From: Deltaproteobacteria bacterium
Lineage (GTDB): Bacteria; Myxococcota; Myxococcia; Myxococcales; 40CM-4-68-19
Direction: 5' to 3'
Assembly (NCBI GenBank): GCA_025358085.1
Contig: JANYKT010000019.1
Location: 62,001 to 126,000 of the forward strand
Length of the DNA: 64,000 nt
Position numbers and translations under genes: made by a program. Position 1 is the stretch's first letter, and each line of letters starts with the position of its first letter. Of this stretch, positions 6,695 through 37,521 are shown piece by piece. The notes under the pieces are model-generated. The model made no database searches. It saw only the letters and a program-made list of their open reading frames with translations, and was not told the origin of the DNA.

Positions 6695-6771
6695 CGCGTT
6701 CAGCCTGCTCCCCGGGCGCTACCCGCGCACGCAAATGCGACGGGGAGCCTGGAGCGAAGTTGCACCTGAAT

Positions 6772-8058
6772 CTATCTGGCGGGCAGCGGGGGCAACGCTT
6801 TCCCGCGCGCCACCCGGACCAGCTGCACGTGGCGCTCGTCGCGCTGCGCGACGGTCAGCTCGAGGCCGCCGATAAAGAAGCGATCACCCGTCTGCGGAAT
6901 CGCCCCCGCGCAGGAGTTGAGCAGCCCCGCGAGAGTCTCGAAATCGCCCCCACCCGGCAGCGTCGCGCCCAGCGTGCGATTCACATCCTCGATACGAGTC
7001 TCGGCGCCCAGCAAGGCCGTTCCGTCAGGTCCCAGACCGGGCATCGGCTGTTCGATATCGTGCTCGTCCCGGATCTCGCCGACGATCTCCTCGAGGATAT
7101 CCTCGAGGCAGACGATCCCCATGAACCCGCCATACTCATCAATGATCATGGCGATATGACTTCGCCGCTGCTGCATCTCCCGCATCAGCTCGCCCACCGG
7201 CTTGGTCCAGGGCGCGAATTGCGCGGGCCGCAGCAGGTCTTGCAGGACGATCAGCTCGGGATGCGCCAACAATGGAATCACGTCCTTCGTGTGCAGCACG
7301 CCTTTGATGTGATCGAGATCGCCATCGAAGACCGGCATGCGCGTATGACCTTCCTCGGCCAACAGGTCGATCACCTCGGCTGGGGTCGCGCCGAGAGGCA
7401 CGCCAACGACGTTGGTGCGCGGGACCATGATCTCCTTGGCGGAGCGGTCCGCAAAAGTAAACAGGCCGTGAATCATTTCGGCGGACGGCGCGCCGGCCGC
7501 GCCTCCGCGGGCTTCCTCGGTGAGCAACTTTTCGAGTTCCTCCAGCGGCGGCGGCGGCGGCGTATACCGCGCCACCGCTCCGCGGTGCAGGAGCAGGGCA
7601 TCGAAGAAGCGGAGCATCAGGAGCACCGGCGGCCGCAGCACGAAACACACCGCGCGCGCCGGGCCAGCGAGCGAGAGACCCCACACGAGCGGGCTCGCTG
7701 CCGCGAGCGATCGCGGCGCCAGGTCGATGATCAGCGCCACCGCGCCGGCCAGCAGCCCAGCCAATAGTTGCAGCGAGCCGCGCGAGGCGGTGTACATGCC
7801 GGCCTTGAGCAGCACGTCGCCGACCACGATGGCGCAGGCCACCGCGGCGAAGGCGAGCAGGCCGGACGAGGCCCCGCGCAGCGCAGCGGCGGTCGGCTGC
7901 GGATCCTGCTTCAGCTGGAGCAGCCAGCGGGCGCGGTGCGGATGGGCCACGCCGCCGGTTCGGATCTCGTCCTCGCCGAGCGCGATGATGGCCGCGTCGG
8001 CTGCCTGAAGCAACGCGCGCCCCGCGAGTGCCGCGCCAGCTGCCAAGAGCTCAAGCAC
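6772..8058 (-). CDS. CNNM/CBS-domain transporter-like protein (HlyC/CorC family)
   Basis: 428 residues from the GTG at 8058. N-terminal CNNM membrane domain with several hydrophobic stretches (about residues 1-150), then a CBS pair (VPRTNVVGVPLGATPAEVIDLL ... RRSHIAMIIDEYGGFMGIVCLEDILEEIVGEI) and the C-terminal CorC_HlyC domain (DFETLAGLLNSCAGAIPQTGDRF). The family is linked to Mg2+/Co2+ efflux or membrane-ion homeostasis. The same frame stays open upstream, but that part looks like the antisense of purS and was excluded. Divergent from purS with 97 nt between. Confidence 0.87.
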   Translation of the reverse strand: MLELLAAGAALAGRALLQAADAAIIALGEDEIRTGGVAHPHRARWLLQLKQDPQPTAAALRGASSGLLAFAAVACAIVVGDVLLKAGMYTASRGSLQLLAGLLAGAVALIIDLAPRSLAAASPLVWGLSLAGPARAVCFVLRPPVLLMLRFFDALLLHRGAVARYTPPPPPLEELEKLLTEEARGGAAGAPSAEMIHGLFTFADRSAKEIMVPRTNVVGVPLGATPAEVIDLLAEEGHTRMPVFDGDLDHIKGVLHTKDVIPLLAHPELIVLQDLLRPAQFAPWTKPVGELMREMQQRRSHIAMIIDEYGGFMGIVCLEDILEEIVGEIRDEHDIEQPMPGLGPDGTALLGAETRIEDVNRTLGATLPGGGDFETLAGLLNSCAGAIPQTGDRFFIGGLELTVAQRDERHVQLVRVARGKALPPLPAR

Positions 8059-8155
8059 GGGGGTGAGCCTACCAGATCCCTGGCCCCCGACCTTCGCCTT
8101 GAAAGCTGCCGCAAACGCTCCTATGGTGCGCGCCTCTGCAGCGGAGGTAGGTTCC

Positions 8156-8422
8156 GTGAAAGCGCGCGTCGTCGTCACGCTGAAGCGTTCAGTGCTGGAT
8201 CCGCAGGGCCAGGCCGTCGGGCGAGCGCTCGCGATGCTGGGATTCGGTGAGGTGCAAGGAGTTCGGCTCGGCAAAATCATCGAGCTCGATCTCGATGCGA
8301 CCGACGCCGCGGAGGCGCGCAAACGCATCGAATCAATGTGCGAGAAATTGCTCGCCAACACCGTGATCGAGGAGTACCGGGTCATCATCGATCCGGCGCC
8401 AGGCGTCGAGGCGGTCGGCTGA
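8156..8422 (+). CDS. purS: phosphoribosylformylglycinamidine synthase subunit PurS
   Basis: 88 residues, the normal size. Begins [21 protein letters not shown], the PurS signature, and includes GKIIELDLD and [13 protein letters not shown]. The GTG at 8156 has GGAGG about 9 nt upstream, which decides the start over in-frame codons further up. PurS bridges PurL and PurQ in the FGAM synthase complex of de novo purine synthesis; a separate PurS implies the small-PurL type of enzyme. The stop overlaps the purQ ATG (TGATG). purL is not in the window. Confidence 0.93.
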
Positions 8423-9114
8423 TGCTGTTCGCCATCGTTGTCTTTCCCGGCTCGAACTGCGACCACGACGTCTATCACGTCGCGAAGCACGTCCTCGGCC
8501 GCGCGGCGCGCTACATCTGGCACAAGGATCGCGACTTGCGGGGCGCCGACGTGGTGGTGCTGCCGGGCGGTTTCTCTTACGGCGATTACCTGCGCACCGG
8601 CGCCATCGCGCGCTTCTCCCCGGTCATGGAAGAGGTCAAGAAGTTCGCCCAGCGCGGCGGCCATGTCATCGGTATCTGCAATGGCTTTCAGATCTTGCTC
8701 GAGGCGGGGCTGCTGCCCGGCGCCATGCGCCGCAATGATTCGCTCAAGTATGTCTGCCGCGATGTCTCATTGAAGGTCGAGAACGCCACGACGCCCTGGA
8801 CTCGCCGCTATGCGCGCGGCGAAGTGATCAAGATCCCGATTGGCCACGGCGACGGGAACTATTACCTCGATGATGACGGCGTGAAGCGTCTGGAAGGCGA
8901 AGGGCAGATTGCCTTTCGTTATACCGACGCCCGCGGGGCCCGCGGCACGCCGGGCGCCAATCCCAATGGCTCACTCGCTGATATCGCCGGCATTACCAAT
9001 GCGCGCGGCAATGTCATTGGAATGATGCCGCACCCGGAGAGGCTGGCCGAGAAGGTGCTGGGCGGCGAGGACGGACTGCGGCTCTTCGAATCCATCGTCG
9101 AGGCCATCGAGTGA
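8422..9114 (+). CDS. purQ: phosphoribosylformylglycinamidine synthase, glutaminase subunit PurQ
   Basis: 230 residues, class I glutamine amidotransferase fold. Begins [18 protein letters not shown]; the oxyanion region is [17 protein letters not shown], the nucleophile Cys is in [10 protein letters not shown], and the His/Glu pair is in GMMPHPERL. It releases ammonia from glutamine for FGAM synthase. Overlaps purS by one base and the following gene at its stop, so the three are likely cotranslated. Confidence 0.95.
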
Positions 9115-9653
9115 TGCTTTTGCTGGCGGCGCTGCTGCTCGCGATGCCGGCCGACAAGCGACTGCAGCTCTCGGTCAAAGCGCCATTGATCGAGCGCGTC
9201 GATCCGGGGACGCTCTTCATCGAGACCGAGGGAGACGTCCACGCCGAGCTTTTGCCTTCGGACGAGATACTGCTCGAGGCGAAGAAGCCCGGCGTGTCGC
9301 GCGTGTTCCTCTTCTCGAAGTTCCTGGTGCGGGTCTACGAGGTGGCGGTGGAGGTGCCGCTGCCCGCCCTCGGACCCGGCGGCTGCGCGCCGGTGATCGA
9401 TGCAAAGACTTATGAAGCTTGCCGCGCGTGCATCGGCCCCGGCGAAAAGGTTGTCTTCGAACTCGAGGGGCTGCAGGCCGTGGCAAGGGCCGCACAGGTC
9501 GAGCTTTCGAAAGCTTCATTGGCGCATCTCTCGGTCGGTTTTTCTCCCTACGGGTTGAGACTCAAAGGCGCGCGCGATGAGGCGGAGCGCCGGCGCGCGC
9601 TGCGGGCAGTCTGGCCGGCGTTGCTGGGGCCGGTCCGCCTCGACAACCCTTGA
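9114..9653 (+). CDS. secreted protein resembling a pilus-assembly N-terminal (CpaC/RhcC-type) domain
   Basis: 179 residues. A short hydrophobic leader ([13 protein letters not shown]) precedes a beta-rich domain with LIERVDPGTLFIETEGDVHAELLPSDEILLEAKKPGVSRVFLF. This pattern matches the N-terminal domain of secretins and pilus formation proteins, in which a signal for position and a KKPG turn recur. The rest, with two Cys near residue 100, is not recognised. The ATG overlaps the purQ stop (GTGATG), odd for an envelope protein following purQ. Assignment is from sequence pattern only. Confidence 0.5.
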   Translation: MLLLAALLLAMPADKRLQLSVKAPLIERVDPGTLFIETEGDVHAELLPSDEILLEAKKPGVSRVFLFSKFLVRVYEVAVEVPLPALGPGGCAPVIDAKTYEACRACIGPGEKVVFELEGLQAVARAAQVELSKASLAHLSVGFSPYGLRLKGARDEAERRRALRAVWPALLGPVRLDNP

Positions 9654-9796
9654 TTGCGCCGGACGCCCGTCTTCAAAAAAAACGTTCTCGCGCCGCTGCC
9701 GTAACCGGACCCAGCGCGCGGGCATCGCGATTCTCTGCACGGGTCGGCCGGCTCGCGAAGGGCATCGCGGAGACTGTCGCGCGGCCGTTGCCTTTG

Positions 9797-9964
9797 CTAC
9801 CGCGGCGGATGCGCCTCGAGATGCTTCCGCGCGCCTTCGGACAGCATGTCCTCGTGCAGCCGGGCCGCGTCGCCGAAGGAGGCCTCGCCTGTGGCTCCGT
9901 CGATGAGGTGCGTGGCCAGTAAATCGAGCGCTTTTTGCGCGCCCCAGAGGCCCTCTGCAAACAC
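9797..9964 (-). CDS. hypothetical 55-residue protein
   Basis: A short minus-strand frame directly after the metallophosphoesterase, starting at a GTG. It reads as a plausible soluble helical peptide (QKALDLLATHLIDGATGEASF) with the high GC at third positions expected of real genes here. No family recognised and no clear ribosome site. It could equally be a remnant or a chance frame. Confidence 0.25.
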   Translation of the reverse strand: MFAEGLWGAQKALDLLATHLIDGATGEASFGDAARLHEDMLSEGARKHLEAHPPR

Positions 9965-10019
9965 GACGCGGCCCCTCGCGCGCGGCTCGCCGAGGAGCCG
10001 CGCGGTCCCGCCCGGACTC

Positions 10020-11528
10020 CTACGCCAACGAAAGAATCGGCTCCTGCAACGACTCGCTCGGAAGCTTCCCGATCGACAGCGTCCGCTGTGGCAGCAGCGC
10101 AGGCACTCGCGACTCTTGCGCCGTCGGCAGCTTCCACCGGCGCAGTTCGGCGACGCCGTTCTCGATGCAGACGTGCGGGAATCCTTCGCCGGCCTTGGTC
10201 CACGCCCCCAGATTGAAATAGCGCGCGCCATTGCCCACCGCCTGCTCCAGCGGCCGGTGGCTATGCCCCATGACGATGAATTTGACGTCGAACACCTGGG
10301 CCACGCGGCGCGCGGCCTGCAGCAGCATCGGGTGCGCGTCGGTGCGGCGCTTGCCGCCCAGCAGCGCATTCAGTGCGGCAAAGCCGATGCCGACACCGGT
10401 GAGCGCAAAAGCCTTGGCCCAGAAGCCGTCCATCATCGACGACAGCAACGAGGCGGCGCCCAGGGACAAGAGCGCCAGCAGCATCCGATCCATATAAAAG
10501 AGCTGCATTGAATCAAACAGGCTCTGCTCGGCCGGCCGCGAAGCCATGGCGATCAATTGCTGCGCTTGTTTCTCGGTGCCCTGGAATTTCGCCAGCATCT
10601 GGCGTAGGTGCGGCGAGGCCACCGGCGCGATGGCCTTGTCGGCCGCCCGCCAGAAAGCGCGGGACAGCTTCAATGATTGCCGCAGGATTGGATAGAGCAC
10701 GCGAAAGACCATGACGAAGTAGTCGCCCGCGATGCGCAGCGGATTGCCCGCCTTGAGCACCCAGTCGAGGTACTCCTTCACGCCCCAGGTGTCGGCGTCG
10801 TCCATGTCCACCTGCTCGGAATAGCGATTGACGAAGTAGCGGACGACAAGTGAACTCATTGGCAGGTTCATTTCGCCAGCCGCCTGCCGGTGCTCGTCGA
10901 AGAAGCCGTCCTGCACTGAATAATGATCGTGGGCATTGCCGTGCTCGGCATAGAAGAAGCCCGGCTCCAGGTAAAACCAGTCGTGAAAGACCACATTGCG
11001 CGCCAGCCGCCGCTCCATCCCGCAGCGCAGCGAAAGTTGCCGGCGGAACTCCGCCTGCACGGCAGGCCAGCGAAACTCGGCGTCGTGATTCCCACGGATG
11101 ATGTGGACAGAATTTCCCTTTTGGAGAAAGCGTGCGAGCGCGTCAAAGACCTGGGGATGACGCTCGACGGTGCGCTGCAGCTTCCAGACGCACTTCAACT
11201 CCTCGGGCGCAAGTCCATCCTCGCGTTCGTCGGCGCGGACCTGGAACGGCACCTCCGCGCCTGGCGGGGGCGTCATCGTGATCGCGACGAAGTCGACGAT
11301 GTCGCCGTTCAGAATCAAACGCCAGGGCTTGCCCTTGGTACGGTGCGACGCGTGGTGGTCGAGAAAGGCCGCCAGCGGCGCGTCGATTGCACGGGGCCGC
11401 AGGATCTGGGCGGGCTTCATTCGGCTCTTCAAGTCCGCCCCGAGATGCAGATCGGAGATGGCGAGCAGGTTGTGCGAACGCTCCGCCAATGATCCCCGAA
11501 CGTGCCGCCACATCCTGGTCAGACCCAT
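10020..11528 (-). CDS. metallophosphoesterase with an inserted transmembrane hairpin
   Basis: 502 residues. All calcineurin-like metal motifs are present: AISDLHLGAD near the N-terminus, LNGDIVDF, IRGNHDAEF, EHGNAHDHYS and, near the C-terminus, VMGHSHRPLE. Between the fourth and the last motif are about 200 extra residues that include two adjacent hydrophobic segments (LLALLSLGAASLL and AFALTGVGIGFAALNAL), so the enzyme is probably membrane-anchored through its middle. ATG 11528 has AAGGAG at good spacing; a longer frame upstream lacks this. The substrate could be a nucleotide, phospholipid or lipid A-type molecule. Confidence 0.78.
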   Translation of the reverse strand: MGLTRMWRHVRGSLAERSHNLLAISDLHLGADLKSRMKPAQILRPRAIDAPLAAFLDHHASHRTKGKPWRLILNGDIVDFVAITMTPPPGAEVPFQVRADEREDGLAPEELKCVWKLQRTVERHPQVFDALARFLQKGNSVHIIRGNHDAEFRWPAVQAEFRRQLSLRCGMERRLARNVVFHDWFYLEPGFFYAEHGNAHDHYSVQDGFFDEHRQAAGEMNLPMSSLVVRYFVNRYSEQVDMDDADTWGVKEYLDWVLKAGNPLRIAGDYFVMVFRVLYPILRQSLKLSRAFWRAADKAIAPVASPHLRQMLAKFQGTEKQAQQLIAMASRPAEQSLFDSMQLFYMDRMLLALLSLGAASLLSSMMDGFWAKAFALTGVGIGFAALNALLGGKRRTDAHPMLLQAARRVAQVFDVKFIVMGHSHRPLEQAVGNGARYFNLGAWTKAGEGFPHVCIENGVAELRRWKLPTAQESRVPALLPQRTLSIGKLPSESLQEPILSLA

Positions 11529-23552: not shown

Positions 23553-23625
23553 GCCCGGGTAGCTCAGTCGGTAGAGCAGGGGATTGAAAATCCCCGTGTC
23601 ACTGGTTCGATTCCGGTCCCGGGCA
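23553..23625 (+). tRNA. tRNA-Phe (GAA anticodon)
   Basis: Complete cloverleaf: acceptor gcccggg pairs with cccgggc, D-arm gctc...gagc, anticodon stem gggga/tcccc with loop ttgaaaa (anticodon GAA), and T-arm with ggttcgattcc. Discriminator A; CCA is not encoded (actcca follows). Its 3' half is repeated, degenerate, at 37475-37521, which suggests this gene served as the attachment site of an integrated element filling the interval. Confidence 0.96.
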
Positions 23626-23957
23626 CTCCAGACCTCGACAATTTGCGCACTTGCCTCGGACGGACCAGTCCGATGGGTCCGCCGGATCCGGCCGGATCTG
23701 GGGTTGCTGTTACAACTGTGCTACAGCGCGCTGGGGTCGGTTGCGGGCTTTTTCTCGCAGTCGCCTCAACGGCATAGGTGTCGATCGCCGAGCGCGCCGG
23801 GCCGTCAAGGGAAGCCTCCAGCCGCGCCGCGAGATCATCGTCAGACGACGCCCACAACTCCATGACGGGGTACTCGCCGATGCGAACAAACAAGGGCCCG
23901 TGCGAGTGCTCGGATCTCTTCGCTTTGATGGCATCCTTCAATTGATCGTTGCTGTAT
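23626..23957. other. island edge next to tRNA-Phe, no gene supported
   Basis: Just downstream of the tRNA. A minus-strand frame runs through here and into the antisense of the tRNA, giving the known spurious peptide GIEPVTRGFSI, so I do not accept its end. Upstream in that frame, SNDQLKDAIKAKRSEHSHGPLFVRIGEYPVMEL looks protein-like but matches no family I know. An integrase gene, expected here, is absent. Confidence 0.4.
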
Positions 23958-23959
23958 CT

Positions 23960-24335
23960 AGAATGGGATGTGGGCAACCTGTCGCAATTGCCGCATTCCT
24001 TGGATGTGTGAGCCTGACAAGACCTCCTCCTGAATGCCCCCGGCGCCTGCATCATGATGTCCATGACCTGCTTGATCCGCGCGCCCGCGACCTCCGCGCC
24101 GCACAGCACCCTCCTGAATCCCCGGCGCCAGCATCAGCAAATCCATGATCTGCGTGACGAGCGCCCGCGATAGGCGCCCCAGCCGATCAGAACCATCTCG
24201 CTGACCGACCTCGCCTGGGCTCTGCTGCGAAGGACGATACGCGCGAGTCAACGCGCCTGCTCGACGAGGCGCGCGTGAACCGTCCCTGCGATACCTGGAG
24301 GGAACTCCGCGCGAAGCAACCAGGTGGATCGACAC
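23960..24335 (-). pseudogene. remnant of a recombinase-type helix-turn-helix protein with an internal duplication
   Basis: The minus strand encodes RLGRLSRALVTQIMDLLMLAPGIQE, matching the HTH segment typical of proteins encoded with serine recombinases (usual form: VSRARVTQIMNLLNLAPDIQE). About 88 nt further on, in another frame, comes a second version, ARIKQVMDIMMQAPG, followed in the first frame by IQEEVLSGSHIQG. At DNA level the two stretches (about 24021-24090 and 24108-24172) are imperfect direct repeats. No recombinase catalytic domain remains. This fits the eroded integration module of the island. Confidence 0.5.
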
Positions 24336-24438: not shown

Positions 24439-26409
24439 TCACTGGCTCGCGACCGCTGCCTGCGCGCGGACCACGCCCTGCCCGAGATCCGCCAGCATGT
24501 CGCCGCGGCCGACGAGATCCTCCGCGCCGCCGCGGTCGAGGATGACCTTCGAATTGACCGCGCTCGCGACGCGCAATGCGATCTTGCCGCCGAGGTTCGC
24601 TTTCAAGACCGGCGGCACCGTCTGGCGGTCGGGCCGCTGGGTCGCCAGCACCAGGTGCACTCCCGCGGCGCGCGCCTTCGCGCCGAGCCGGCCCACCGCG
24701 GTGCAGAATGCTGCCGACGCCTTCTTCTCCGCGGTGAGGTCCTGGAATTCGTCGATGACCACCACGTGGCGCGCGAGCCTTTGCGTGGTCGAGACCGCTT
24801 GATTGTATTCGTGCAGATCCGAGACCCCCTCCTTCTCGAACTGCGCATACCGTTCTTCCATCAACTCGACGTAGCGCTCGATGCAGGGCATGGCGTCATC
24901 GATGCTGTAGAGCAGCGGACCGTCGAGGTGCGCCCCCAGCGCGGCCTGGAATCCGCCGCTCGTGAAGGTGACGCGCTTCGGGTCCAGCAGCGTGATCCGC
25001 AATGACGACGGATCGTGCCAATGCACCAGACTCGCTACGATCGACCGCAGCAGCCAGGACTTGCCGCTGCCGGCCTGCCCGCCAATCAAGAGATGGGGAG
25101 TCGCGGAATCGGAGAGATCGCAAGTGACGATCGCACCGTCAGGCTGCTCGCCCAAGACCAGCCGGCCGGGGCGCTCCGAGAGCCACTCGCGCCTGGCCTC
25201 GAGGAGCTTCGCCAGCAGCACCGGCCGCGGGTGGGCGCGCTTGACCACGAATGAGCGGCGAGGCCCATCTTTGACATAGCTCGCTTCGCAGACCTTCACG
25301 GAACTCAGCCGGTGACAGACGTCGAGCGCATTGCGATCGAGTTGGGCCAGCGACCCGCGCGGCCGTGAAATGAAGATCTGATAGATGGTCGGCCCGACGA
25401 CAGGCGCGGGCGAGACGGCCGTGACCCCGTCCTTCCGCAGCTCGTCAATGATCCGCTTCTGGATCGCGAGGGCCTCGCGCAGCCCGTCCTCGTCGGAGGA
25501 CGCCGCGGTCGGTGGCTGCACCGGAACCGGCGCCGTCATGCCGCCTGAGGCCGCCGAACGAGGGCGCGACGCGGCCATGGGCGGGTCGTCGCGCGCAGGC
25601 AGCCGGCCCGGGTAAAGCTCGGCGCAATCGGTCGCGACCGGACAGGCGGCGCACAGGTCGCGCCGCACGGTCGCGGGCGCGCTGTCCGGGTCGTCCAGCC
25701 AGCGCGCCATCCGGCTGAGCAGCGGCACGAGCTGCGTGCGCACCATCTCGTCGGCGCGCTCCTCGCGGACCTCCACGACCGTCAGCGCCGGATTGAACCG
25801 CAGGATGACCGGCCGTGCCGAGATCCCCTCCGCGCGCTGAAGCAACTCGCGATAGAGCGCCACCTGCGCGCGATCGACCGCTTCGTTCTCCTGGTCGGTG
25901 AGTTTGTATTCGATGACATCGATTCGCTCGTCGCCCAAGGCGTGAAGCGCGTCGATGCGTCCGGTCAGCAGCACGGACGCTTCGGGGAGGTGCGCCTCCA
26001 CGGAGCGCTCGCCGGCGCGCAGCAGCGAGCGAAGCGCCGCGGCAGGCTCGCCCTTGCCAATGCGCTTGGCCAGATAACCCGCGAATTGTCGCAGCGCTTC
26101 TGCGAGGTCGTCCACCTCCGCCGGCATGCTGCGATAGGAGGGATCGCGCTCGAGTTCCTCAATCAGGAAGCCCAGGATCCAGCGAGCGATTGCCGCCGCG
26201 GCTTCGTCGCCTTCCCGCAGTCTCGCGATGTAGTCAGGCGGCGCATCGACTGTCTGCGCGAATCGATCGACCACGCGGTGGAAGGTGCCGCCCAGGCACG
26301 ACGACCCGACCGGGAACGTCACCTGCCGGTGGAGGCGCCTCCCGATGGTGAAGACGCGAGGGCAGCGCAGGGCGTTCCGGACCTCGGTCACCGAGACTCG
26401 CGCGGTCAT
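24439..26409 (-). CDS. RecB/Cas4-like Fe-S nuclease fused to FtsK/SpoIIIE-type DNA translocase
   Basis: 656 residues. Residues 1-265 form a PD-(D/E)XK nuclease of the RecB/Cas4 type: H44, D153 (GRID), E167-x-K169 (IEYK) and QxxxY at 182-186. Four cysteines, C16, C253, C256 and C262, are spaced as in the Fe-S cluster of Cas4/AddB. After a Pro/Ala-rich linker (270-340) comes an FtsK motor: Walker A GGQAGSGKS (443-451), LLDPKRV, Walker B VVVIDEFQDL (D553, E554) and LATQRPD. The membrane and gamma DNA-reading domains of true FtsK are missing. Predicted to translocate on and cut DNA. The ATG overlaps the stop of the AAA gene (ATGA), so the two are cotranslated. It is the last gene of the cassette. 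Confidence 0.85.
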   Translation of the reverse strand: MTARVSVTEVRNALRCPRVFTIGRRLHRQVTFPVGSSCLGGTFHRVVDRFAQTVDAPPDYIARLREGDEAAAAIARWILGFLIEELERDPSYRSMPAEVDDLAEALRQFAGYLAKRIGKGEPAAALRSLLRAGERSVEAHLPEASVLLTGRIDALHALGDERIDVIEYKLTDQENEAVDRAQVALYRELLQRAEGISARPVILRFNPALTVVEVREERADEMVRTQLVPLLSRMARWLDDPDSAPATVRRDLCAACPVATDCAELYPGRLPARDDPPMAASRPRSAASGGMTAPVPVQPPTAASSDEDGLREALAIQKRIIDELRKDGVTAVSPAPVVGPTIYQIFISRPRGSLAQLDRNALDVCHRLSSVKVCEASYVKDGPRRSFVVKRAHPRPVLLAKLLEARREWLSERPGRLVLGEQPDGAIVTCDLSDSATPHLLIGGQAGSGKSWLLRSIVASLVHWHDPSSLRITLLDPKRVTFTSGGFQAALGAHLDGPLLYSIDDAMPCIERYVELMEERYAQFEKEGVSDLHEYNQAVSTTQRLARHVVVIDEFQDLTAEKKASAAFCTAVGRLGAKARAAGVHLVLATQRPDRQTVPPVLKANLGGKIALRVASAVNSKVILDRGGAEDLVGRGDMLADLGQGVVRAQAAVASQ

Positions 26410-28289
26410 TCTTCCACCCAGCGGACGATGGCGTCGCCGATGAAGGCCACGCTCTTTGACGAGCCAAGCTCGCGCAGCACGTCGGCGCGGTTCGCATGCG
26501 CCTCCCGAATCAGCCGCTCGAGCGACATCACCCGCAGCGCGCGGAGAATGGCAATGGCCCCTGCGGCCGAGGCGGGATGTTTCTCAAGCACCGTCGACTC
26601 CGGTTGCTGCTCCTTTGGCGTCGCACCGCAGAGCGCCTGCGTAAGGGCCCAGCCGCGCACCTCAAGCTTCGCGCGCGCCCATCCTTTCACGGCCTCGAAC
26701 GCGAGCGACTTGCCATCGCGTCCCGAGACGTCTCCCGATCGCGCGTCTTTCAACAGCTTGGCAAGCGCGAGCATATTCACCGCTTCGTCTCTATCGAGCC
26801 ATTGCCAACCGACCGAAGGAGCCTTGCGGAACGATTCCCACTGCGCGCGCGTCTGCTTCCAGGTCGGAGGCCACTCGCGCCAGCGCTCTCGCAACGCCAC
26901 GACGCCCCCTGGCAGGCCCGCGAGCGTACGCAAGAACGCCAGCACCGAGGCCGGGTTCGCCTGATTCAAGATCGCGATGAATGCGGGACCTTTAGGCTGC
27001 ACCATCCGCAACAGGTTCGGCCGCTCGATCTTGATCGGTCCGAGGTCAGGCAGGAGCGAAGCCAGCGCAACGAATCCCTCGAGAAGAAAAGCCATCTCCG
27101 GACCGTGACCGGTGAGGGCCATTTCGTCGATATGATGGCGGGCGAAGGCGAGGCAGCCCTCCCACGCCGCGAGGCAGGCGTCGTCCGGTGGCTCCGCGGC
27201 CTTCTCCGCCGGTGCATTGCCTTCCAGAGCTTCACGCAGCTCCTCCAGGAGCATTCGGGGCGTGAGGCCCACTGTGTCGCAGAGCGTAGCCAGCTGGCCG
27301 TCGGTCAGCGGCGAGGCCACGTTCTTGAGCCAGAGCTCGACCAGCGCGCGGCGTTCCGACGGCGTCGGCAGCAGAAGCGGTATTCGCCTTCCGATCACGC
27401 GCGATCGCTGTGACGGGCCGAACCTGCGCTCGATGTTCGCGTCCCACTCGGTGCTCAGGCCCATCTGCACGATCACCAGGTCGCGCACTACGTCCACCAA
27501 CTCCGCGATCAGGTTCCCATAGGCGATGATGCGCGAGCCGCTACCGCCGGGATCAATCAGGTTCTCCAGTTGGTCAAAGACAATCACCAAGGGCGAGGTC
27601 GCCGCGGCCACCGCCGCGATGGTGCGCAGCGCGGAGATCACCTCACCATCGGGCAGAGCGTCCCGCACGCCAACTCGACGGGCCTGCGCGTCGTCGAGGT
27701 CGCGGCCGCTCAGCCAGACCAGCAGCGCCGTGCGCGGGAGCGGCTCGGCGAAGGGGACGCGCAACAGCCGCTCGAGATAGCTTGTGTCAATCCCGGCGGC
27801 GGACGGCGCGAGGCTCTCGATGGCCTGCTCGACGCGCGCCTGCCGCTCCTCGGCGGACAGCTCGCGAAGCTGCTGCAGCATGGCAGCTGGAAACCTGGGG
27901 TTCTCGCCGCCCGCCAGCGCGAGCGTCGTGCCGGCGATGACGTCGATTTGCGACTGGCCATAAGAGTTGTACCCGAGCTGCTGCACGATCTGGCCGAGCA
28001 GGAATCGCGGCGTCATCTCGCCGCCGATCAGCGGCCGGACGTGAACGAAGACCCCTCGCGCGCCTACCTTCCGCCGCAACCTGCCGAAGAGGTGAGTCTT
28101 GCCGACGCCGGCAGGGCCTACCGCGACGATGGCCAGGGGCGGCTCACCGCGCTCCCGGGCCTGCGCGCGGCGCCGAAGGTCTTCAATCGATTGCACCACT
28201 GCATTGGTGGCGGCGGCGTTGAGGGAATCGAGATCGAGGATCTCCGGCGCCCAAGGCTCGGCGTGCGTCGGCGCAAGCTGGTTCGTCAT
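26406..28289 (-). CDS. AAA/STAND-like ATPase of the island cassette
   Basis: 627 residues from ATG 28289. P-loop GPAGVGKT (58-65), then ARGVFVHVRPLIGGEMTPRFLLGQIVQQL, which recalls Orc/Cdc6-like or BREX-type ATPases. Walker B is LVIVFDQLENL (D239, E242). A probable sensor/arginine region follows (RRFGPSQRSRVIGRRIPLLLPTPSERRALVELWL). The C-terminal 300 residues are helical and unrecognised. Start and stop both overlap the neighbouring genes (TAATG upstream, ATGA downstream), strongly suggesting one protein complex with the winged-helix protein and the nuclease-FtsK fusion. Role inferred, not known. Confidence 0.7.
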   Translation of the reverse strand: MTNQLAPTHAEPWAPEILDLDSLNAAATNAVVQSIEDLRRRAQARERGEPPLAIVAVGPAGVGKTHLFGRLRRKVGARGVFVHVRPLIGGEMTPRFLLGQIVQQLGYNSYGQSQIDVIAGTTLALAGGENPRFPAAMLQQLRELSAEERQARVEQAIESLAPSAAGIDTSYLERLLRVPFAEPLPRTALLVWLSGRDLDDAQARRVGVRDALPDGEVISALRTIAAVAAATSPLVIVFDQLENLIDPGGSGSRIIAYGNLIAELVDVVRDLVIVQMGLSTEWDANIERRFGPSQRSRVIGRRIPLLLPTPSERRALVELWLKNVASPLTDGQLATLCDTVGLTPRMLLEELREALEGNAPAEKAAEPPDDACLAAWEGCLAFARHHIDEMALTGHGPEMAFLLEGFVALASLLPDLGPIKIERPNLLRMVQPKGPAFIAILNQANPASVLAFLRTLAGLPGGVVALRERWREWPPTWKQTRAQWESFRKAPSVGWQWLDRDEAVNMLALAKLLKDARSGDVSGRDGKSLAFEAVKGWARAKLEVRGWALTQALCGATPKEQQPESTVLEKHPASAAGAIAILRALRVMSLERLIREAHANRADVLRELGSSKSVAFIGDAIVRWVEE

Positions 28290-29083
28290 TACGCAGCTCC
28301 GGTCAGGCGTGCCCAGGAGAGCCGGGTACCGCGCGGACCGGGCGGACACAGATCCAACTCTTCCGGCGAGAGGCGGTCGAGACCCGAATCGGGCTGCAAC
28401 TCGATGCGCCCGCCTCGCGCTGCCTCGAGAATCGCCGCGTGCACCTCGCTGGGCCGGTGAGCGGACAGCGCGCGAACCGTGTCCGGCACGAAGCTCAGGC
28501 CCACGGACACGCGCACGTGGCGGCCCAGCTCAGCGACGGCCGTGTCCAAGAGCGACACTGCCTTACGAGACTGCACGAACTCCAGAAGCTGCTCGCGCAC
28601 GTCGTCCTGCAGCACCGTCGCGTCGCGTCTCAACGCCTTGGCAGCGAGGGTGGCGAGGAGCTTGCTCGCCCGCGCGAGCGCCACGAGTTGTTCGCGAGAA
28701 AGGGTCGCGGCCGAGACGTGAGCCAGAATCTCGACCTTGCCGCGGAGCACGGTCTTGGCGCGCCCTTCGCTCACCAGGGCGGCGGCCACCGCTTTGACCT
28801 CTTTCACCGTGGCGCCGCGTACGGCTTTGACAAGCTGCGAGGGCGCGATCTGCTTCCGCTCCTCGAGGTTTTTTATGAGCTGCTTCCGGAGCGGGACGCG
28901 AACAGCCTTTGGCGTGCGCTCGAATCCGTCCGCCTCCAGGCGCGACAGCGCAGCTGCATGCTGGGCGCGCGGAACGCCCGCTTTCGTGAGGGCTGGCGCG
29001 TTCAGCGCTTTCTCGCGCTCGAGCGCGGCGCGGAGAGCGGGAAGCACTGAATCGAGATCGATCGTCTTTGCGCGCGAGGCCAA
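28289..29083 (-). CDS. multi winged-helix-like protein of the island cassette
   Basis: 264 residues starting at TTG 29083 with AGGGGAGA just upstream. No family recognised by name. It looks like serial winged-helix units: PALTKAGVPRAQHAAALSRL, then SQLVKAVRGATVKEVKAVAAALVSEGRAK, and a C-terminal one (VHAAILEAARGGRIELQPDSG). The last residues, LSPEELDLCPPGPRGTRLSWARL, look like a conserved signature. Probably the DNA-binding or target-recognition part of the cassette. Its stop overlaps the ATPase start by one base. Confidence 0.6.
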   Translation of the reverse strand: MASRAKTIDLDSVLPALRAALEREKALNAPALTKAGVPRAQHAAALSRLEADGFERTPKAVRVPLRKQLIKNLEERKQIAPSQLVKAVRGATVKEVKAVAAALVSEGRAKTVLRGKVEILAHVSAATLSREQLVALARASKLLATLAAKALRRDATVLQDDVREQLLEFVQSRKAVSLLDTAVAELGRHVRVSVGLSFVPDTVRALSAHRPSEVHAAILEAARGGRIELQPDSGLDRLSPEELDLCPPGPRGTRLSWARLTGAA

Positions 29084-29454: not shown

Positions 29455-32043
29455 TCACGCCTGTTGGGCGCCGAGCCTGCGGGCGAGCTCGGCGAAGAAG
29501 CCGGCCAGCGTCGCAGCGGCCTCCGCCGGTGCCTCGATGCGCAGCCCGCCGCCCGCGGTCGGCTCGATCCGCACCTGCGCGAGAGTGTCCATCAGGATCG
29601 AGCTGGCGTTGGCACCGGCCCTCGCGGACTCGTTCGCGGGCGGCGCGGCCGTCCCGGCGTCGAGGGCCCCATCGGCTGGCGGAGAAGGCAGGTCGAGAGA
29701 GGCGTCTTCGGCTGCAGAGCGCGCTCCTTCGCCGAGGGCCGCCGGCAAGTCGACCAGCTTTTCGACGCGCGAGAGAAACGACCCGCCGCCGTCGTAGCGC
29801 ACTTCGTCCGAGGCGCCGTCGAAGAGACCGGAGAAGAGCGCCCTCTTGTCGCCGAGCAGGCCCGCGATGCGCGCTTCGATGCCAGCCTCGGCGACGAGGT
29901 TGTAGACCTCGATGCGGTTCTTCTGCCCCATCCGCCAGATGCGGGCGATGCGCTGCTCGAGCACGGCAGGATTCCAGGGCAGCTCAAGGTTGATGCAGCT
30001 ATCGGCGGCGTGCTGGAGGTTCAGGCCGACGCCGCCCGCGTCGGTCGCGAAGAGGACGCGGGTGCGCGCGTCGTCGTGGAAGTCGACCAGGTTCTGCGTG
30101 CGCCGCTTCGGCGACTCTTTGCCGCTGAACCAGACCGCGCGAAGCCCCGCGGCTTCGAGAAGGTCCCCGATCGCCCAGTGCGCGAGCGTGAGCATGCGCC
30201 GCCACTGGCTGAAGACGACGATGCGCCGCTCCTGCACCACCGCCAGCTGGCGGACGAGCTCCCGCAGCTCCCCGAGCTTGGGCGAGCCGAGCGTGGAGAG
30301 CACCGCGGGAGTGGGCCGCTCGCGGGCGATGCCTTGGCCAAGCTCGTCGTAGCGCGCGAGCGCGAGCCCGTTGCAGAGCATGCGCTGCTCGGTGAGCATG
30401 GCCATCAGGCGCTGGAACTCGGGCGGAGTGAGCGGCCGCCGCCGCCCGCGGGCCGCGAGCGCAGCGATAGGAGGGATGAGCGCGTCGTGCTCCTCGAGCT
30501 GCTGCGGCGTCAGCTCGACCGGAACGCGCGTGTCGATCCGAGCCGGCAGCTGCTGCAGCACCTCCTGCTTGCGGCGGCGCAGGAACGACGGGGCCATGCG
30601 GTCCCGAAGCGTGTCGAGGTGCCGCGCGCCCGCCACCTCGCGCTTCCCGCCTTCGTGCAGCGTGTGCCACGGCGTGAGCCGCCATTTGGGCTCGAGCGCC
30701 GTGTCGTCCACCCAGTCGTAGAGGGAAGCAAGCTCGTCGATGCGGTTCTCGAGCGGCGTGCCCGTCAGCACCAGCCGGAACAAGGGCTGCAGTTGCTTCA
30801 CGCTCGCCGCGGTCTTCGTCTGCCAGTTCTTGATCCGCTGCGCTTCGTCGAGCACCACCAGCTCCGGATCCCAGGCCCGCATCGCCGCGAGATCGCGCAC
30901 CGCCTGCTCGTAATTGGATATAAGGAATCCATTGCCTGCCTGATAGAACGCCTGCCTCTCGCTCGCGCTGCCTTCGACGAGGCGGACCGGCACATCGGTA
31001 AACGAACGCCACTCTCGCAGCCATTGTGGCTTAAGGCTCGCCGGCACGATGAGCAGTCCGCGTCGCACCTTGCCCAGCTTCCAGAGAGCGTGACAGGCGC
31101 CGATCGCCTGCGCCGTCTTACCCAGCCCCATGTCGTCGGCCAACAGCAGCCGCCCGGTAGTGACCGCCCGGCGTACGCCTTCTCGCTGGTACGGGAAGAG
31201 CCGGTGCTTCAGGCTGCGCAGGACCGCGCCGAGACGTTCGCCGATCGGTGCGAGTGAAATCAGCCTCTGCAGCCGCTCGGCTTCCTCCGTGAGCAGCGGC
31301 AAGAGCGCTGGGTCGGAGGGCAGTGAACCTCCGCCGGAGGTATGGCCAGCGAGGCGGAGCAGCGCAGCTACCAGCGCACGGCGGCGTTCAACATTGCGCG
31401 GGTGCGTGCTGCTGAGAGAGCGCGCCTCGCCGCGGCCGGCGAAGCCGGCGTCGATAAGCTTGCGGTGCGGCGACGTCGGGAGCGGCCCCAGCCACCGGAT
31501 GCGAGCGAGCACATCGTCCTTGCCGAGAAGCGGCCGAACGGGGTCCCACACGAGACGTCCCACGGCGGGCGACGCGGGCGCGTGCGGTTCCCGGGCGCTC
31601 CGAGGCTTTTGGTGGGCATGAGTGAGCGCGACCAGGAGGTGCTTGCAGAGGGCCAGTCCGTTGCGCACGAAGTCCCGGCAGTCGCAGCTGCCCGACAGTC
31701 CAGCGCCGGCGGTGAGCAGCGTGCGGTAGGGGCGGCGGCTCGCCTTCGACGCGATGGTATAGAGGCCAGTGGCCGAGCGCGCCGGCACATGCACGGCGCG
31801 AAGCGCCTCTCGCGTGGCCGCGGCCTTTCGTCGCAAGAGCGCCTCGAGCGCGGCCCGGCGAAGCGGGAAGTCTCCTCCCTTGGTGACCTCGAGGATGTGG
31901 AGCGCGACCAGCCTCGCGGGAATCGCTCCGAAGCGTTTCCCCGCCATCCCCTCGAGCTCGCGCCGTGCATCGTCGTCGACGACCGAGGTTCTGAGGGAGG
32001 CCCCCGGCTCAATGAGCGCTGGTGGTTGTGACAAGCTCGGCAC
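29455..32043 (-). CDS. SNF2-family helicase-like ATPase with N-terminal SWIM zinc finger
   Basis: 862 residues. The SWIM finger is C120-x-C122...C133-x-H135. The SNF2 core begins near residue 275: LFPYQREGVRRAV, motif I DDMGLGKT (303-310), motif II DEAQ (399-402, Gln instead of His), LTGTPLENR, and in the second lobe IVVFSQWRRMLTL, ATDAGGVGLNLQ and the arginine-finger motif RIARIWRMGQKNRIEVYNLV. About 120 C-terminal residues are low-complexity and end helical. Such enzymes translocate on duplex DNA and recur in DISARM, Zorya and Dpd systems. GTG start with GGGGAGG at good spacing. First gene of the putative cassette. Confidence 0.88.
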   Translation of the reverse strand: MPSLSQPPALIEPGASLRTSVVDDDARRELEGMAGKRFGAIPARLVALHILEVTKGGDFPLRRAALEALLRRKAAATREALRAVHVPARSATGLYTIASKASRRPYRTLLTAGAGLSGSCDCRDFVRNGLALCKHLLVALTHAHQKPRSAREPHAPASPAVGRLVWDPVRPLLGKDDVLARIRWLGPLPTSPHRKLIDAGFAGRGEARSLSSTHPRNVERRRALVAALLRLAGHTSGGGSLPSDPALLPLLTEEAERLQRLISLAPIGERLGAVLRSLKHRLFPYQREGVRRAVTTGRLLLADDMGLGKTAQAIGACHALWKLGKVRRGLLIVPASLKPQWLREWRSFTDVPVRLVEGSASERQAFYQAGNGFLISNYEQAVRDLAAMRAWDPELVVLDEAQRIKNWQTKTAASVKQLQPLFRLVLTGTPLENRIDELASLYDWVDDTALEPKWRLTPWHTLHEGGKREVAGARHLDTLRDRMAPSFLRRRKQEVLQQLPARIDTRVPVELTPQQLEEHDALIPPIAALAARGRRRPLTPPEFQRLMAMLTEQRMLCNGLALARYDELGQGIARERPTPAVLSTLGSPKLGELRELVRQLAVVQERRIVVFSQWRRMLTLAHWAIGDLLEAAGLRAVWFSGKESPKRRTQNLVDFHDDARTRVLFATDAGGVGLNLQHAADSCINLELPWNPAVLEQRIARIWRMGQKNRIEVYNLVAEAGIEARIAGLLGDKRALFSGLFDGASDEVRYDGGGSFLSRVEKLVDLPAALGEGARSAAEDASLDLPSPPADGALDAGTAAPPANESARAGANASSILMDTLAQVRIEPTAGGGLRIEAPAEAAATLAGFFAELARRLGAQQA

Positions 32044-32178: not shown

Positions 32179-32526
32179 TCAAGGGCGAACCACCGCGCAG
32201 TCACTTGTTCCAAAGTCGATCGAACCGCGCAAAGACCTTCTCGAGGTCAAAGCCGGGGCGTCCGGCCGGAGCACGCTGGGCAGGTCTCGCGCCAGCCCTG
32301 CTGCAAAGATCCGTCGGCGGCATTCTGTCATGCCGAATGAGCGGCGTTGCTTCGACAAAGGATCTACTTTGAGTTCGGCCAACTTGCGATCGACCAGCGC
32401 GACGAAATCTGCCGAGGTGAAATCAGCGCGCCGGTCGCGCAGCCTGTCGAGATCGTAGAAGTCGCGGATGGCGTCGCGCGTAAACGCCGCACGTACCTTC
32501 TCTGCCCGCGCTTCCGCAGCGGCCAA
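32179..32526 (-). pseudogene. 3' fragment of an AbiEii/AbiGii-type nucleotidyltransferase toxin gene
   Basis: Only the C-terminal part is present. The start of the frame, AAAEARAEKVRAAFTRDAIRDFYDLDRLRDRR, matches the EEALAEKlRAal...iRDfYDL block that lies past the middle of AbiEii-like toxins. The nucleotidyltransferase core that should precede it is missing; that space is taken by the next, different gene. Possibly a separate decayed system or the scar of a deletion. Confidence 0.55.
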
Positions 32527-32567: not shown

Positions 32568-32732
32568 TCAGCTGGAAGGCTTGGCCTGCTTCAACTGCCG
32601 GCTAAGCTTCTGCATCTGGAGGACGATCAGAATCTTTTCTTGGAACGGAAGCTCCGCGAGTTTGCGCCGCTGGGCCACCTTCGCCGCGAGGATCCGGTCG
32701 AACGCTTGCTGTCGCGTCAGGTTCTCAGCCAC
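32568..32732 (-). CDS. 54-residue partner protein of the MNT nucleotidyltransferase
   Basis: Short gene starting at GTG 32732, overlapping the end of the nucleotidyltransferase gene by 8 nt. Sequence is basic and helical with LPFQEKILIVLQMQKLSRQLKQ. Short proteins with an F-EEKI-x-x-V-x-x-LQK core often follow MNT-like genes in toxin-antitoxin-like loci, so the pair may form a two-gene module. The function of these partners is not established. Confidence 0.5.
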   Translation of the reverse strand: MAENLTRQQAFDRILAAKVAQRRKLAELPFQEKILIVLQMQKLSRQLKQAKPSS

Positions 32733-33264
32733 GAGTCAATTCCTCGAACTTGCGCCAGCGGTTGAGCATGCCGTGGCGAAGCAGAATGGACTCTAACGCC
32801 GCGCGATCCAGCGGGGTAGTGGCGGTCTCCTGCAGGTGCAGAATCTTCATCCGGTCCTTGGCCCGGTTCGCCTGGAGCGCAACCGCGACCGCGTGCTCGG
32901 CCGTGAAGATCCGAGCCGGTGCCCTTCCGATCGTGATGTCCCGGGCTTGTTGAATAGCTTCCTCAACCAACGGCCCCGTAGCCGGCAGGATCTGCACGGG
33001 AACGCCCTCGATCAAGATCTGCTCGTTCTCGGCCGAGTAGCCCAGGTTGCGCAGATATTCATAGATGGGAGCCAGACTGATCAGGTCGCCCGCCGACGGG
33101 AAATGAGCGAACACGTCGAGGTCGCCGGTCTCGAAGGGCTCTGCGTAGTAGATGAACGCGAAAGCGCCGCCGATCGCGTACCGACCTATCAGTCCCGCGC
33201 TCTCCAACTCGTTCAGCCGCTGGAAGACGACTTCGATGGAGGCGCTGGTCGCATCGACCGGCAT
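32725..33264 (-). CDS. MNT-type nucleotidyltransferase-like protein
   Basis: 179 residues from ATG 33264. The minimal nucleotidyltransferase signature is present: YAIGGAFAFIYYAEPFETGDLDVF, giving G32-G33 and the metal-binding D48-x-D50. The rest (YEYLRNLGYSAENEQILIEGVPVQILP, then a helical C-terminus) fits the AbiEii-related nucleotidyltransferase fold. Such proteins act as toxins, or as antitoxins that modify HEPN toxins. Coupled to the 54-residue gene downstream. AGAAGGGG precedes the start. Confidence 0.65.
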   Translation of the reverse strand: MPVDATSASIEVVFQRLNELESAGLIGRYAIGGAFAFIYYAEPFETGDLDVFAHFPSAGDLISLAPIYEYLRNLGYSAENEQILIEGVPVQILPATGPLVEEAIQQARDITIGRAPARIFTAEHAVAVALQANRAKDRMKILHLQETATTPLDRAALESILLRHGMLNRWRKFEELTRG

Positions 33265-33367
33265 GCCCCTTCTGTACCCGAACGGGGCCCCGCAGGTCGA
33301 GTGGACCTCAGGGATTCGAGAACGGACGTGGCTGACCGTTGTTACGCGCGAGCGGTACACTGGCTAC

Positions 33368-34547: not shown

Positions 34548-37007
34548 TCAGTCGCCGATCGGCGGCCCGTCTGGCGGCTCCGCGGGAGCCGGCAGCTCGA
34601 GCCCCTTCGGCTCGCGCTGGAACTCCGCGATCTGCCCCTCGGCAAAGAGCAGGTGCGCGCGCTCGGCGAGGTCCTTGCTCTTCGCGCCTGCCGAGGCGAG
34701 CCAGCCCTTGAGCTCCTGCAGCTTCAAAGCGGCGACCGCGCGCACCTGCGCAGCCGCCTTGTCGTCGCGCGACAGCGCCATCAAATCATAGAGCGCGACG
34801 GAGTTGACGGTGCGCGCGACCTCACCGCGCAGCGCTGCAGGCCGCGGCGCCTTCCAAGTGGCCGCAAGGATCGCATCGAGCACCTCGTCAAGGCCGGGGC
34901 TCTCGGGCCGCCGCGCGTGCTGCTCGAGCAGGCGGGTGGCGCGCGCGGGGTCGAAGAGAAACCGCAGCGTGTGCTGCGCCGCTGCTTCTGCCGGCGCGAG
35001 CGCGTCGAAGGCGGGCGCGGTGCGCGGCTTGAAGTGCTCGCGGCCGCGCTCGTACATCGGCGGCCGCGGGGGGATGAGATCGAGCAGCGAGTCGGTCAGT
35101 GTCAGCGCGTCGGGCGAGAGCGTCGCGAGCACGGCGCCGAGAGCCCGCCGCTGCTCGGCAGGAGCTATCGGGTGAGTGGCAATCTGCCCGTCTCCGCGGA
35201 GGGCAAATACATAGTCCATTCCGCCGACCAGCTTCGCCGCCGCCTCCACCTGATACCGATGCAGCAGATAAGCAGTCACCAACGGGTCTTCGATGGTGGC
35301 GAGCGGCGCACCCTTGCGGATGTTCCGCTCGCCGAAGCGGGCCAGTGCGGCTGCGCGCACCTGCATGAGCCGGTTCAATTCGTCGACGGGGTTCGATCCT
35401 GAGTCCCAGAGGTGTGCGACGCTGCTCGACGAGCCCGCGGGCCGCGCGTCCTGATCGGTGAGATAGCGCAGGCCGCGCGCAAAAGCCTTGTCGAGGATGT
35501 CATTTAGTGCGGCTGACTCATCGGTGCCTGCCGCGAACTGCTGGTAACCCCAGGCTATGGCCGTCTTGTCCCACTCGCCGATTCCCTTTGCATAGGCGTC
35601 CGACACATCGGGAATACCGTCGCCGCCCAGCGTCGCCACCGGCGGCGGATAGTCCATCACCGAGGAGCGCTGAACCGTGCTCGCCGCATAGTTATGCATC
35701 AGCCCCAGCGTGTGCCCGACCTCGTGCGCAGCCAGCTGGCGCAAGCGGGCCAGCGCAAGCTCCTGCATCCGAGGCGAGAGTGGCTTGCCCGCCTCGTGCG
35801 GCGCGAGCAGCCCTTCCGCGACGAGATAGTCCTGCCGCACCCGCAGCGAGCCCAGCGTCACGTGGCCTTTGAGGATCTCACCCGTGCGCGGGTCGATCAC
35901 GCTCGCGCCATAGGACCAGCCGCGCGTCGAGCGGTGCACCCATTGGATCATGTTGTATCTGAGGTCCATCGGATCGGCCCCGTCGGGCAGTAGCTCGACG
36001 CGAAAGGCGTTGAGATAGCCCGCGGCTTCGAAGGCCTGGCTCCACCATCGCGCGCCCTCGAGCAGCGCCGAGCGGATCGGCTCGGGCGTACCCGGATCGA
36101 GATAGTAGATGATCGGCTTGACCGGCTCGCTCGCCCGCGCCGACGGATCGCGCTTCTCCAGCCGGTGCCGCACGGTAACGCGCTTCGCGATAGGCTCGCT
36201 GATCGGCGTCGCATAATCGAAGTACGAGATACCCTCGAAGCTCGAGCGGGGATCATACGCCCGCGGCTGGAAGCCGGGCGGCGGCAGCGCGACGAACGAG
36301 TGGTGCTCGCGCACGGTGATCGCGTCGGGTGAAGGAGTCACTTGCCGGACCCATTCGCCGGGCTCTTCGCCCGTGAAGGTCAGCGTGGCTTCTACCTCGG
36401 TGTTCAGCGGAAACCCCTTTGTGCGAGGAAGATAGAGCGCGCAGCGGGATGGCTCGAGCTTGTAGGTCCCCTGCTTCAGCTTCTTCAGCGCAGCCGGGAT
36501 CTCCCGCGCGTCGCTGAGGAAGAAGTCGGTCGCGTCCACCAGCGCGGTCTCGCCCGTGGCAGCAGAGACGGCAAAACCCCATAAGGCAGACTCGGCGAAG
36601 GACTCCCTCACCGCGCGGCGCTCGTTCTCGTCCGAAGTCACTGCGCGATAATCGAGGTTCGATTGCACGAGCAGCACCCGGGGCCCGATGCGCTGAAAGC
36701 GCACCACGCGTGTCGCGCCGAGCCGGCCGCGATCGAGGCCCAGGTCATTGGACCCGACGCCGGCGGGCAGCGAGGTCTGATAGAGAAACTCAGTCTCCCA
36801 GCGGTCGATCTCGAGCCATAGCTTCCCCTGCCTCGGGTCCCAATAGAGATTGAAATAGCCGGGTAGCTTCTCAAAGCCGGCGACCTTGTCGGCGATGGGC
36901 GGGAGCGGCTTGATCTCCGCGTCCGCCTTCGGCTCGGGCTGCGGGGCGGCGTGGGCCGCGCAGGCGCAGAGGAGCAGCGCGAGCGCAGAGACGGAGCGGT
37001 TGTTCAT
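34548..37007 (-). CDS. secreted zinc-dependent metalloprotease (DUF5117/DUF4953 type)
   Basis: 819 residues with a signal peptide (MNNRSVSALALLLCACAAHA). The N-terminal DUF5117-like domain contains GYFNLYWDPRQGKLWLEI and FLYQTSLPAGVGSNDLGLDRG. The metzincin-type site is HEVGHTLGLMHN (H428, E429, H432, H438). SSVMDYPPP follows, then a helical C-terminal domain. It probably degrades proteins outside the cytoplasm; the substrate is unknown. The gene looks intact although it lies inside the proposed island, so the island may be composite. Confidence 0.88.
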   Translation of the reverse strand: MNNRSVSALALLLCACAAHAAPQPEPKADAEIKPLPPIADKVAGFEKLPGYFNLYWDPRQGKLWLEIDRWETEFLYQTSLPAGVGSNDLGLDRGRLGATRVVRFQRIGPRVLLVQSNLDYRAVTSDENERRAVRESFAESALWGFAVSAATGETALVDATDFFLSDAREIPAALKKLKQGTYKLEPSRCALYLPRTKGFPLNTEVEATLTFTGEEPGEWVRQVTPSPDAITVREHHSFVALPPPGFQPRAYDPRSSFEGISYFDYATPISEPIAKRVTVRHRLEKRDPSARASEPVKPIIYYLDPGTPEPIRSALLEGARWWSQAFEAAGYLNAFRVELLPDGADPMDLRYNMIQWVHRSTRGWSYGASVIDPRTGEILKGHVTLGSLRVRQDYLVAEGLLAPHEAGKPLSPRMQELALARLRQLAAHEVGHTLGLMHNYAASTVQRSSVMDYPPPVATLGGDGIPDVSDAYAKGIGEWDKTAIAWGYQQFAAGTDESAALNDILDKAFARGLRYLTDQDARPAGSSSSVAHLWDSGSNPVDELNRLMQVRAAALARFGERNIRKGAPLATIEDPLVTAYLLHRYQVEAAAKLVGGMDYVFALRGDGQIATHPIAPAEQRRALGAVLATLSPDALTLTDSLLDLIPPRPPMYERGREHFKPRTAPAFDALAPAEAAAQHTLRFLFDPARATRLLEQHARRPESPGLDEVLDAILAATWKAPRPAALRGEVARTVNSVALYDLMALSRDDKAAAQVRAVAALKLQELKGWLASAGAKSKDLAERAHLLFAEGQIAEFQREPKGLELPAPAEPPDGPPIGD

Positions 37008-37474: not shown

Positions 37475-37521
37475 GGGAGATTGAAACTCCTGTGTCAGTG
37501 TTCGATTCCGGTCCCGGCACC
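37475..37521 (+). repeat. degenerate 3' half of tRNA-Phe, probable attachment-site remnant
   Basis: Starts in the anticodon stem (gggagattgaaactcc, anticodon GAA kept) and runs through the T-arm to the acceptor 3' strand. An 18-nt core, gttcgattccggtcccgg, is identical to 23605-23622 in the intact tRNA and in the same orientation. Upstream and acceptor-end bases differ, so it is not a working tRNA. Integrating elements that use a tRNA gene leave precisely such a 3' copy at the far end. Confidence 0.75.

Follow-up and report, generated by a model that had tools for sequence, protein, structure and literature searches.

A 656-aa protein encoded on the minus strand joins a putative Fe-S nuclease of the RecB family to an FtsK alpha+beta motor in a single chain and is the last member of a three-gene module, missed in the original prediction, that consists of a 264-aa protein, an AAA ATPase and the nuclease-FtsK. 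The set spans ~4.6 kb of the window (the whole stretch of 64,000 nucleotides analysed), and all catalytic residues of the nuclease-FtsK are intact. The operon probably encodes a rare three-gene anti-invader system of the Myxococcota, one that represents a variant, with a nuclease of the Fe-S RecB family, of the HerA/FtsK capture class, which is itself a prediction. The features on which this reading rests are the following.

24439..26409, minus strand: nuclease-FtsK, a fusion of a putative Fe-S RecB-family nuclease and an FtsK alpha+beta motor; 656 aa, ATG start
25609..26409, minus strand: its nuclease domain, residues 1-267 (PDDEXK_1, invariant residues, fold matches)
24442..25512, minus strand: its FtsK alpha+beta motor, residues ~300-656 (FtsK_SpoIIIE, fold match to 6t8b)
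26406..28286, minus strand: Orc/Cdc6-TnsC-like AAA ATPase (Pfam AAA_16, model mebf7df2348f1, TnsC/Cdc6 fold matches)
28289..29083, minus strand: 264-aa protein that probably binds DNA through several winged helices; its gene is conserved ahead of the AAA gene
29455..32043, minus strand: SNF2 helicase (SNF2-rel_dom, E 1.3e-30; also a weak match to a SWIM finger), upstream of the operon
23553..23626, plus strand: tRNA-Phe, left end of a presumed island
37476..37520, plus strand: decayed copy of the tRNA-Phe 3' half (48-column match), presumed other end of the island

A RecB-family nuclease domain ahead of an FtsK motor

The open reading frame and all residues named in the original prediction were found in place. 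Two Pfam families were matched over their cut-offs: PDDEXK_1 (PF12705) at residues 4-262 (E 5.8e-18) and FtsK_SpoIIIE at residues 401-593 (E 9.6e-29). The nuclease domain carries C16, H44, D153, E167, K169, Q182, Y186, C253, C256 and C262, and the motor carries Walker A (GSGKS, 447-451), LLDPKR at 474, Walker B (D553-E554) and LATQRP at 588. The nuclease domain stands in place of the N-terminal membrane region of FtsK, and FtsK homology stops near residue 650 of 656, leaving no room for a gamma domain; the absence of both FtsK regions had been correctly anticipated. Five full-length homologues (L004-L008), 50-64% identical to the window protein, were identified in metagenome-assembled genomes of Myxococcota. 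In an alignment of these six proteins, all ten of the nuclease-domain residues listed above are identical in 6/6 sequences and Walker A, Walker B and the TQR motif are likewise invariant, whereas C38, which was never claimed as a ligand, varies. Five full-length homologues with invariant key residues exclude chance, frameshift and mis-assembly as the source of the fusion, and the conservation of active site and cysteines at six independent loci indicates that it is real and constrained.

The cysteines are laid out as one N-terminal residue and three C-terminal residues in a CxxCx5C pattern. In the crystallised Cas4 protein Pcal_0546 the cluster is held by Cys200/203/209 (PMC4176176), and the C-terminal cysteine spacing of the two proteins is the same. 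The label Cas4-like, which the domain had been given earlier, holds in the broad sense of membership in PDDEXK_1 but not in the narrower sense of Cas_Cas4, whose Pfam score of 22.2 bits narrowly misses the cut-off of 22.7. A search of PDB sequences with the nuclease part returned chance-level matches only, besides a weak match to EXO5.

All six sequences went into a structural model of the nuclease-FtsK (mean pLDDT 74, pTM 0.54), which contains both the nuclease and the motor fold; with so low a pTM the model does not define how the two halves are arranged, and residues 613-656 have pLDDT below 50. In fold searches residues 1-267 matched AdnA of AdnAB (Z 16.5, 225 residues aligned), human EXO5 (Z 16.3), Cas4 (Z 15.0) and AddB (Z 14.2). 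Because these matches are nearly tied, we prefer the name iron-staple RecB-family nuclease over Cas4 proper, and sequence and model together support a RecB-family nuclease of the Cas4/AddB/AdnA/EXO5 type. Residues 300-656 matched the alpha-domain-containing FtsK motor (6t8b, Z 29.6) and also the conjugation coupling protein TcpA (Z 22.8). The predicted order of a Cas4/AddB-type nuclease followed by an FtsK motor is thus upheld by sequence, conservation and fold match. For the protein itself we infer Fe-S binding, ATPase activity, DNA cutting, translocation and ring formation. In a small tree the six nuclease-FtsKs were separated from the cellular FtsKs of the phylum (support 100/100); this tree was built without a DndH/SspH panel and does not settle the origin of the motor.

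Partner genes and an optional SNF2 helicase

The AAA gene is present at 6/6 loci, and at all of them its stop overlaps the start of the nuclease-FtsK gene by 4 bases (ATGA in the window). Its own start is likely the ATG at 28286 rather than the GTG at 28349, since the homologues begin at the corresponding residue; the stop codon of the 264-aa gene overlaps this likely start in the window (TAATG). In the AAA model (mean pLDDT 77), structural re-alignment gave TnsC (Z 15.3), Cdc6 (Z 13.9) and ORC (~13.5); an HslU-type AAA had ranked first by Foldseek but fell below TnsC and Cdc6/ORC on re-alignment. Residues 419-488 are modelled as a helix, three strands, a helix and a strand with no conserved D or ExK, and form a predicted inactive REase-like core, while the last ~50 residues (595-647) are modelled as a C-terminal winged helix. 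The AAA profile matched a 1221-aa Myxococcus-type protein that begins with the same AAA and ends in a HerA motor, all in one chain (probability 98.3%, E 1e-14, 538 columns), and this single-chain relative ties the AAA protein to the capture class discussed below.

The 264-aa protein had no family match in the libraries searched and chance-level matches only among PDB sequences; judging from its sequence it is probably a multi-winged-helix DNA binder. Its gene was recognised by similarity at L004, L006 and L008 and by position at L007, and at L005 it is cut by the contig end.

The SNF2 gene upstream of the operon was considered as a fourth core gene. A homologue 47% identical to it lies divergently beside the L007 operon, but none is found near the L004 and L006 operons, and close homologues occur in 21 of the 195 genomes of the phylum, 20 of which do not have the operon. 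Being common without the operon and missing beside two of the relatives, it was rejected as a core gene and is regarded as a loosely linked, optional accessory.

Genomic setting, distribution and alternative functions

The operon is rare and patchy in the Myxococcota. The nuclease-FtsK is present in 2 of the 195 genomes of the phylum, and the close form of the AAA protein and the 264-aa protein are likewise confined to these two. No full-length nuclease-FtsK was detected in 72,556 plasmids or 50,697 phages, where the FtsK half alone was matched, and scans of viral contigs with the nuclease-FtsK and AAA alignments gave no relative. The search beyond the Myxococcota was one scan of 84,980 genomes by exact short peptides, a method by which absence outside the Myxococcota is not implied.

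The tRNA-Phe gene and its decayed copy bracket ~13.9 kb with the operon inside. The local score of the copy is 55, whereas random places scored no higher than 22. The backbone to the left is collinear with that of two relatives up to and including the tRNA-Phe; gene-by-gene searches, which replaced a six-frame comparison of the right flank that was discarded as too noisy, gave no match in those two relatives for any gene right of the tRNA. Integrated islands usually show this arrangement of a tRNA gene and a decayed copy, and we presume that the operon sits on one.

Several other features lie within or near this segment. At window positions 24038-24169 there are two diverged tandem copies of ~50 nt, 76% alike, with short frames like LVTQIMDLLMLAPGIQE; the LVTQIMDLLMLAPGIQE frames have no Pfam match, and we take them to resemble the tail of serine-recombinase-associated genes. 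A truncated piece of an AbiEii-type nucleotidyltransferase (32179-32526, 115 aa), covering only family positions 139-196, is adjoined by a small nucleotidyltransferase-looking protein (32725-33360) without a Pfam match. A DUF5117/DUF4953 metalloprotease gene (34548-37007) lies within the presumed island and has no match in 11 other genomes of the family.

Defence genes adjoin two of the related operons. Directly beside the L005 operon, and oriented towards it, is a complete Azaca set (positions 4160-10474 of L005) with full-length ZacA, ZacB and ZacC (E 1.7e-124, 2.5e-166 and 0, respectively). The neighbours of the L008 operon are a DpdE-like SNF2 protein (E 5e-236) and, directly after the nuclease-FtsK (9278-14347 of L008), a large SMC/SbcC-like gene with mad3/LmuB/DndD-like matches. 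Other than the SNF2 gene of L007, no named defence neighbour was found at L004, L006 or L007, and the upstream genes of the G147 copy had no clear defence match. The Azaca system beside L005, the DpdE-like and mad3-like genes beside L008, the patchy presence of the operon and the island at tRNA-Phe are part of the case for defence.

Rarity and setting also bear on whether the operon could instead serve DNA repair or the resection of DNA ends, working like HerA-NurA, AddAB or AdnAB, with motor and nuclease in one chain. The nearest nuclease folds, AdnA, AddB and EXO5, are those of repair nucleases, and HerA-NurA, a hexameric motor paired with a nuclease (PMC9960219), provides a precedent for such coupling. 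A repair function would, however, have to be reconciled with occurrence in so few genomes of the phylum, with an apparent island and defence genes next to relatives, and with a partner of the Orc/Cdc6-TnsC type, and we consider it unlikely. Transfer, maintenance or exclusion machinery of a mobile element, pumping or destroying the DNA of rival elements to the advantage of that element, would account for the likeness of the motor to TcpA, the resemblance of the AAA protein to TnsC and the apparent island around the window copy. Yet the operon shows no relaxase, transposase or intact integrase, its relatives are found in unrelated surroundings, and full-length copies are absent from the plasmids and phages searched; this explanation, which partly overlaps with defence, appears improbable to us.

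A Cas4 of CRISPR adaptation that has acquired a motor would fit the Cas4 fold and the cysteine pattern, but the genome itself (98% complete) has no Cas1 match, a search that was positive in 9 of 14 control genomes, and the neighbouring genes that were checked at the operons include no cas genes, so that we give this origin hardly any credence. Phosphorothioation was considered in the same way: a PAPS-reductase family gene (PF01507; DndC/SspD-type) was not matched in the genome, and the control was positive in 14/14. With neither Cas1 nor PF01507 in the genome, CRISPR adaptation and phosphorothioation are not the context of the operon, and partners from both were rejected.

Relation to HerA/FtsK capture systems and proposed mechanism

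HerA/FtsK capture systems are a predicted class described from genomes by Rakesh, Aravind and Krishnan in 2024 (PMC10853773). They combine an Orc/Cdc6 ATPase, in which an inactive REase separates the AAA core from the C-terminal winged helix, with an active nuclease and a HerA/FtsK motor that sometimes has the FtsK alpha domain, and a subset includes a DndG/SspB-like multi-winged-helix protein; the motor was proposed to intercept invader DNA and deliver it to the nuclease, and an anti-invader role was predicted class-wide (PMC10853773). The module layout of the operon fits this description, and we regard it as a probable variant of the class: common to both are the Orc/Cdc6-type AAA, the alpha-domain FtsK motor, a nuclease and a patchy distribution, and probably also the REase-like insert before the C-terminal winged helix and an extra DNA-binding protein. 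The four-cysteine RecB/Cas4-class nuclease N-terminal to the FtsK motor appears to be particular to the operon, whereas the fusion in the capture paper involves a 3'-5' exonuclease. That paper makes no mention of Cas4, AddB, RecB or Fe-S (PMC10853773); it has two REase families, of which the text names only the AbiJ-linked one; the operon nuclease is intact and of the RecB/Cas4 class.

Among known defence proteins, PADLOC matched the nuclease-FtsK best to the FtsK end of SspH (E 2.8e-58, profile positions 1480-1751 of 1766). SspFGH resembles the operon in having three genes, a Walker-A ATPase and a third protein with an FtsK-like end (PMC8092258). However, the nuclease-FtsK has 656 aa compared with the 1766 positions of the SspH model and does not have the long N-terminal region (>1000 residues) of SspH and DndH, and its own genome is without a phosphorothioate gene. 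DndFGH, which may occur without such a gene, likewise has a winged-helix partner, comparable to the probable one of the operon, and, in DndH, a type-II-like REase and a HerA/FtsK domain in one chain (PMC10853773). DndH differs in averaging ~1700 residues in eight domains, and DndF is a P-loop kinase whereas the AAA protein of the operon is of the Orc/Cdc6 type. Cas4-like PF12705 proteins joined to helicases, such as UvrD-Cas4 and the links to COG1205 (Hudaiberdiev 2017, PMC5704561), unite the same nuclease class with a DNA motor, but those motors are SF1/SF2 helicases, and the Cas4 family census mentions neither FtsK nor HerA (PMC5704561). HerA-DUF4297, HerA-SIR2 and HerA-NurA also pair a ring motor of the HerA/FtsK class with an effector, and solved HerA-effector structures were among the matches of the nuclease-FtsK fold search; in these systems a HerA-type motor works with an effector on a separate chain, unlike the one-chain FtsK-type protein described here. 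The fusion had been called an unusual architecture. Text searches of open-licence papers found no earlier description of it, but a one-chain nuclease with HerA/FtsK was already known in DndH; what differs is the predicted Fe-S RecB/Cas4-class domain ahead of an FtsK motor. An FtsK-class pump of double-stranded DNA thereby joins SF1/SF2 helicases among the motors fused to Cas4-class nucleases.

We propose a DNA-binding role for the 264-aa protein, through which it would contribute to picking the target, and that the Orc/Cdc6-TnsC-like AAA protein, as its fold class suggests, would assemble on DNA and recruit or load the nuclease-FtsK. The motor, modelled with the FtsK fold, would form a ring that pumps double-stranded DNA, while the nuclease domain of each subunit, its two ends joined by the Fe-S staple, may degrade the DNA during pumping; alternatively, the nuclease may act at ends and gaps met by the motor. 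The SNF2 helicase would be an optional partner. Because the operon comes without a cognate DNA-modification gene, the choice between self and non-self probably depends on the state of the DNA (ends, or intermediates of replication or transfer) or is made by the AAA and DNA-binding partners. We suggest only tentatively that this is the first defence machine in which an FtsK ring carries its own Fe-S nuclease on each subunit, one protein thus both pumping and shredding the DNA, and is targeted by an Orc/Cdc6-type loader with no protective DNA modification. Capture systems are so far proposals drawn from genomes alone, and a compact set of ~4.6 kb with motor and nuclease in one chain would make the idea directly testable: the operon could show whether the pump feeds invader DNA to the nuclease and how the host is spared without a methylation or phosphorothioate mark.

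Many genomes of one genus in the same order encode a protein of ~1200 aa that combines an Orc/Cdc6-type AAA with HerA (for example, at 6505-10170 of locus L042). The L042 copy adjoins an anthranilate synthase gene, and on that account the protein may represent a relative of capture systems that has become fixed and domesticated.
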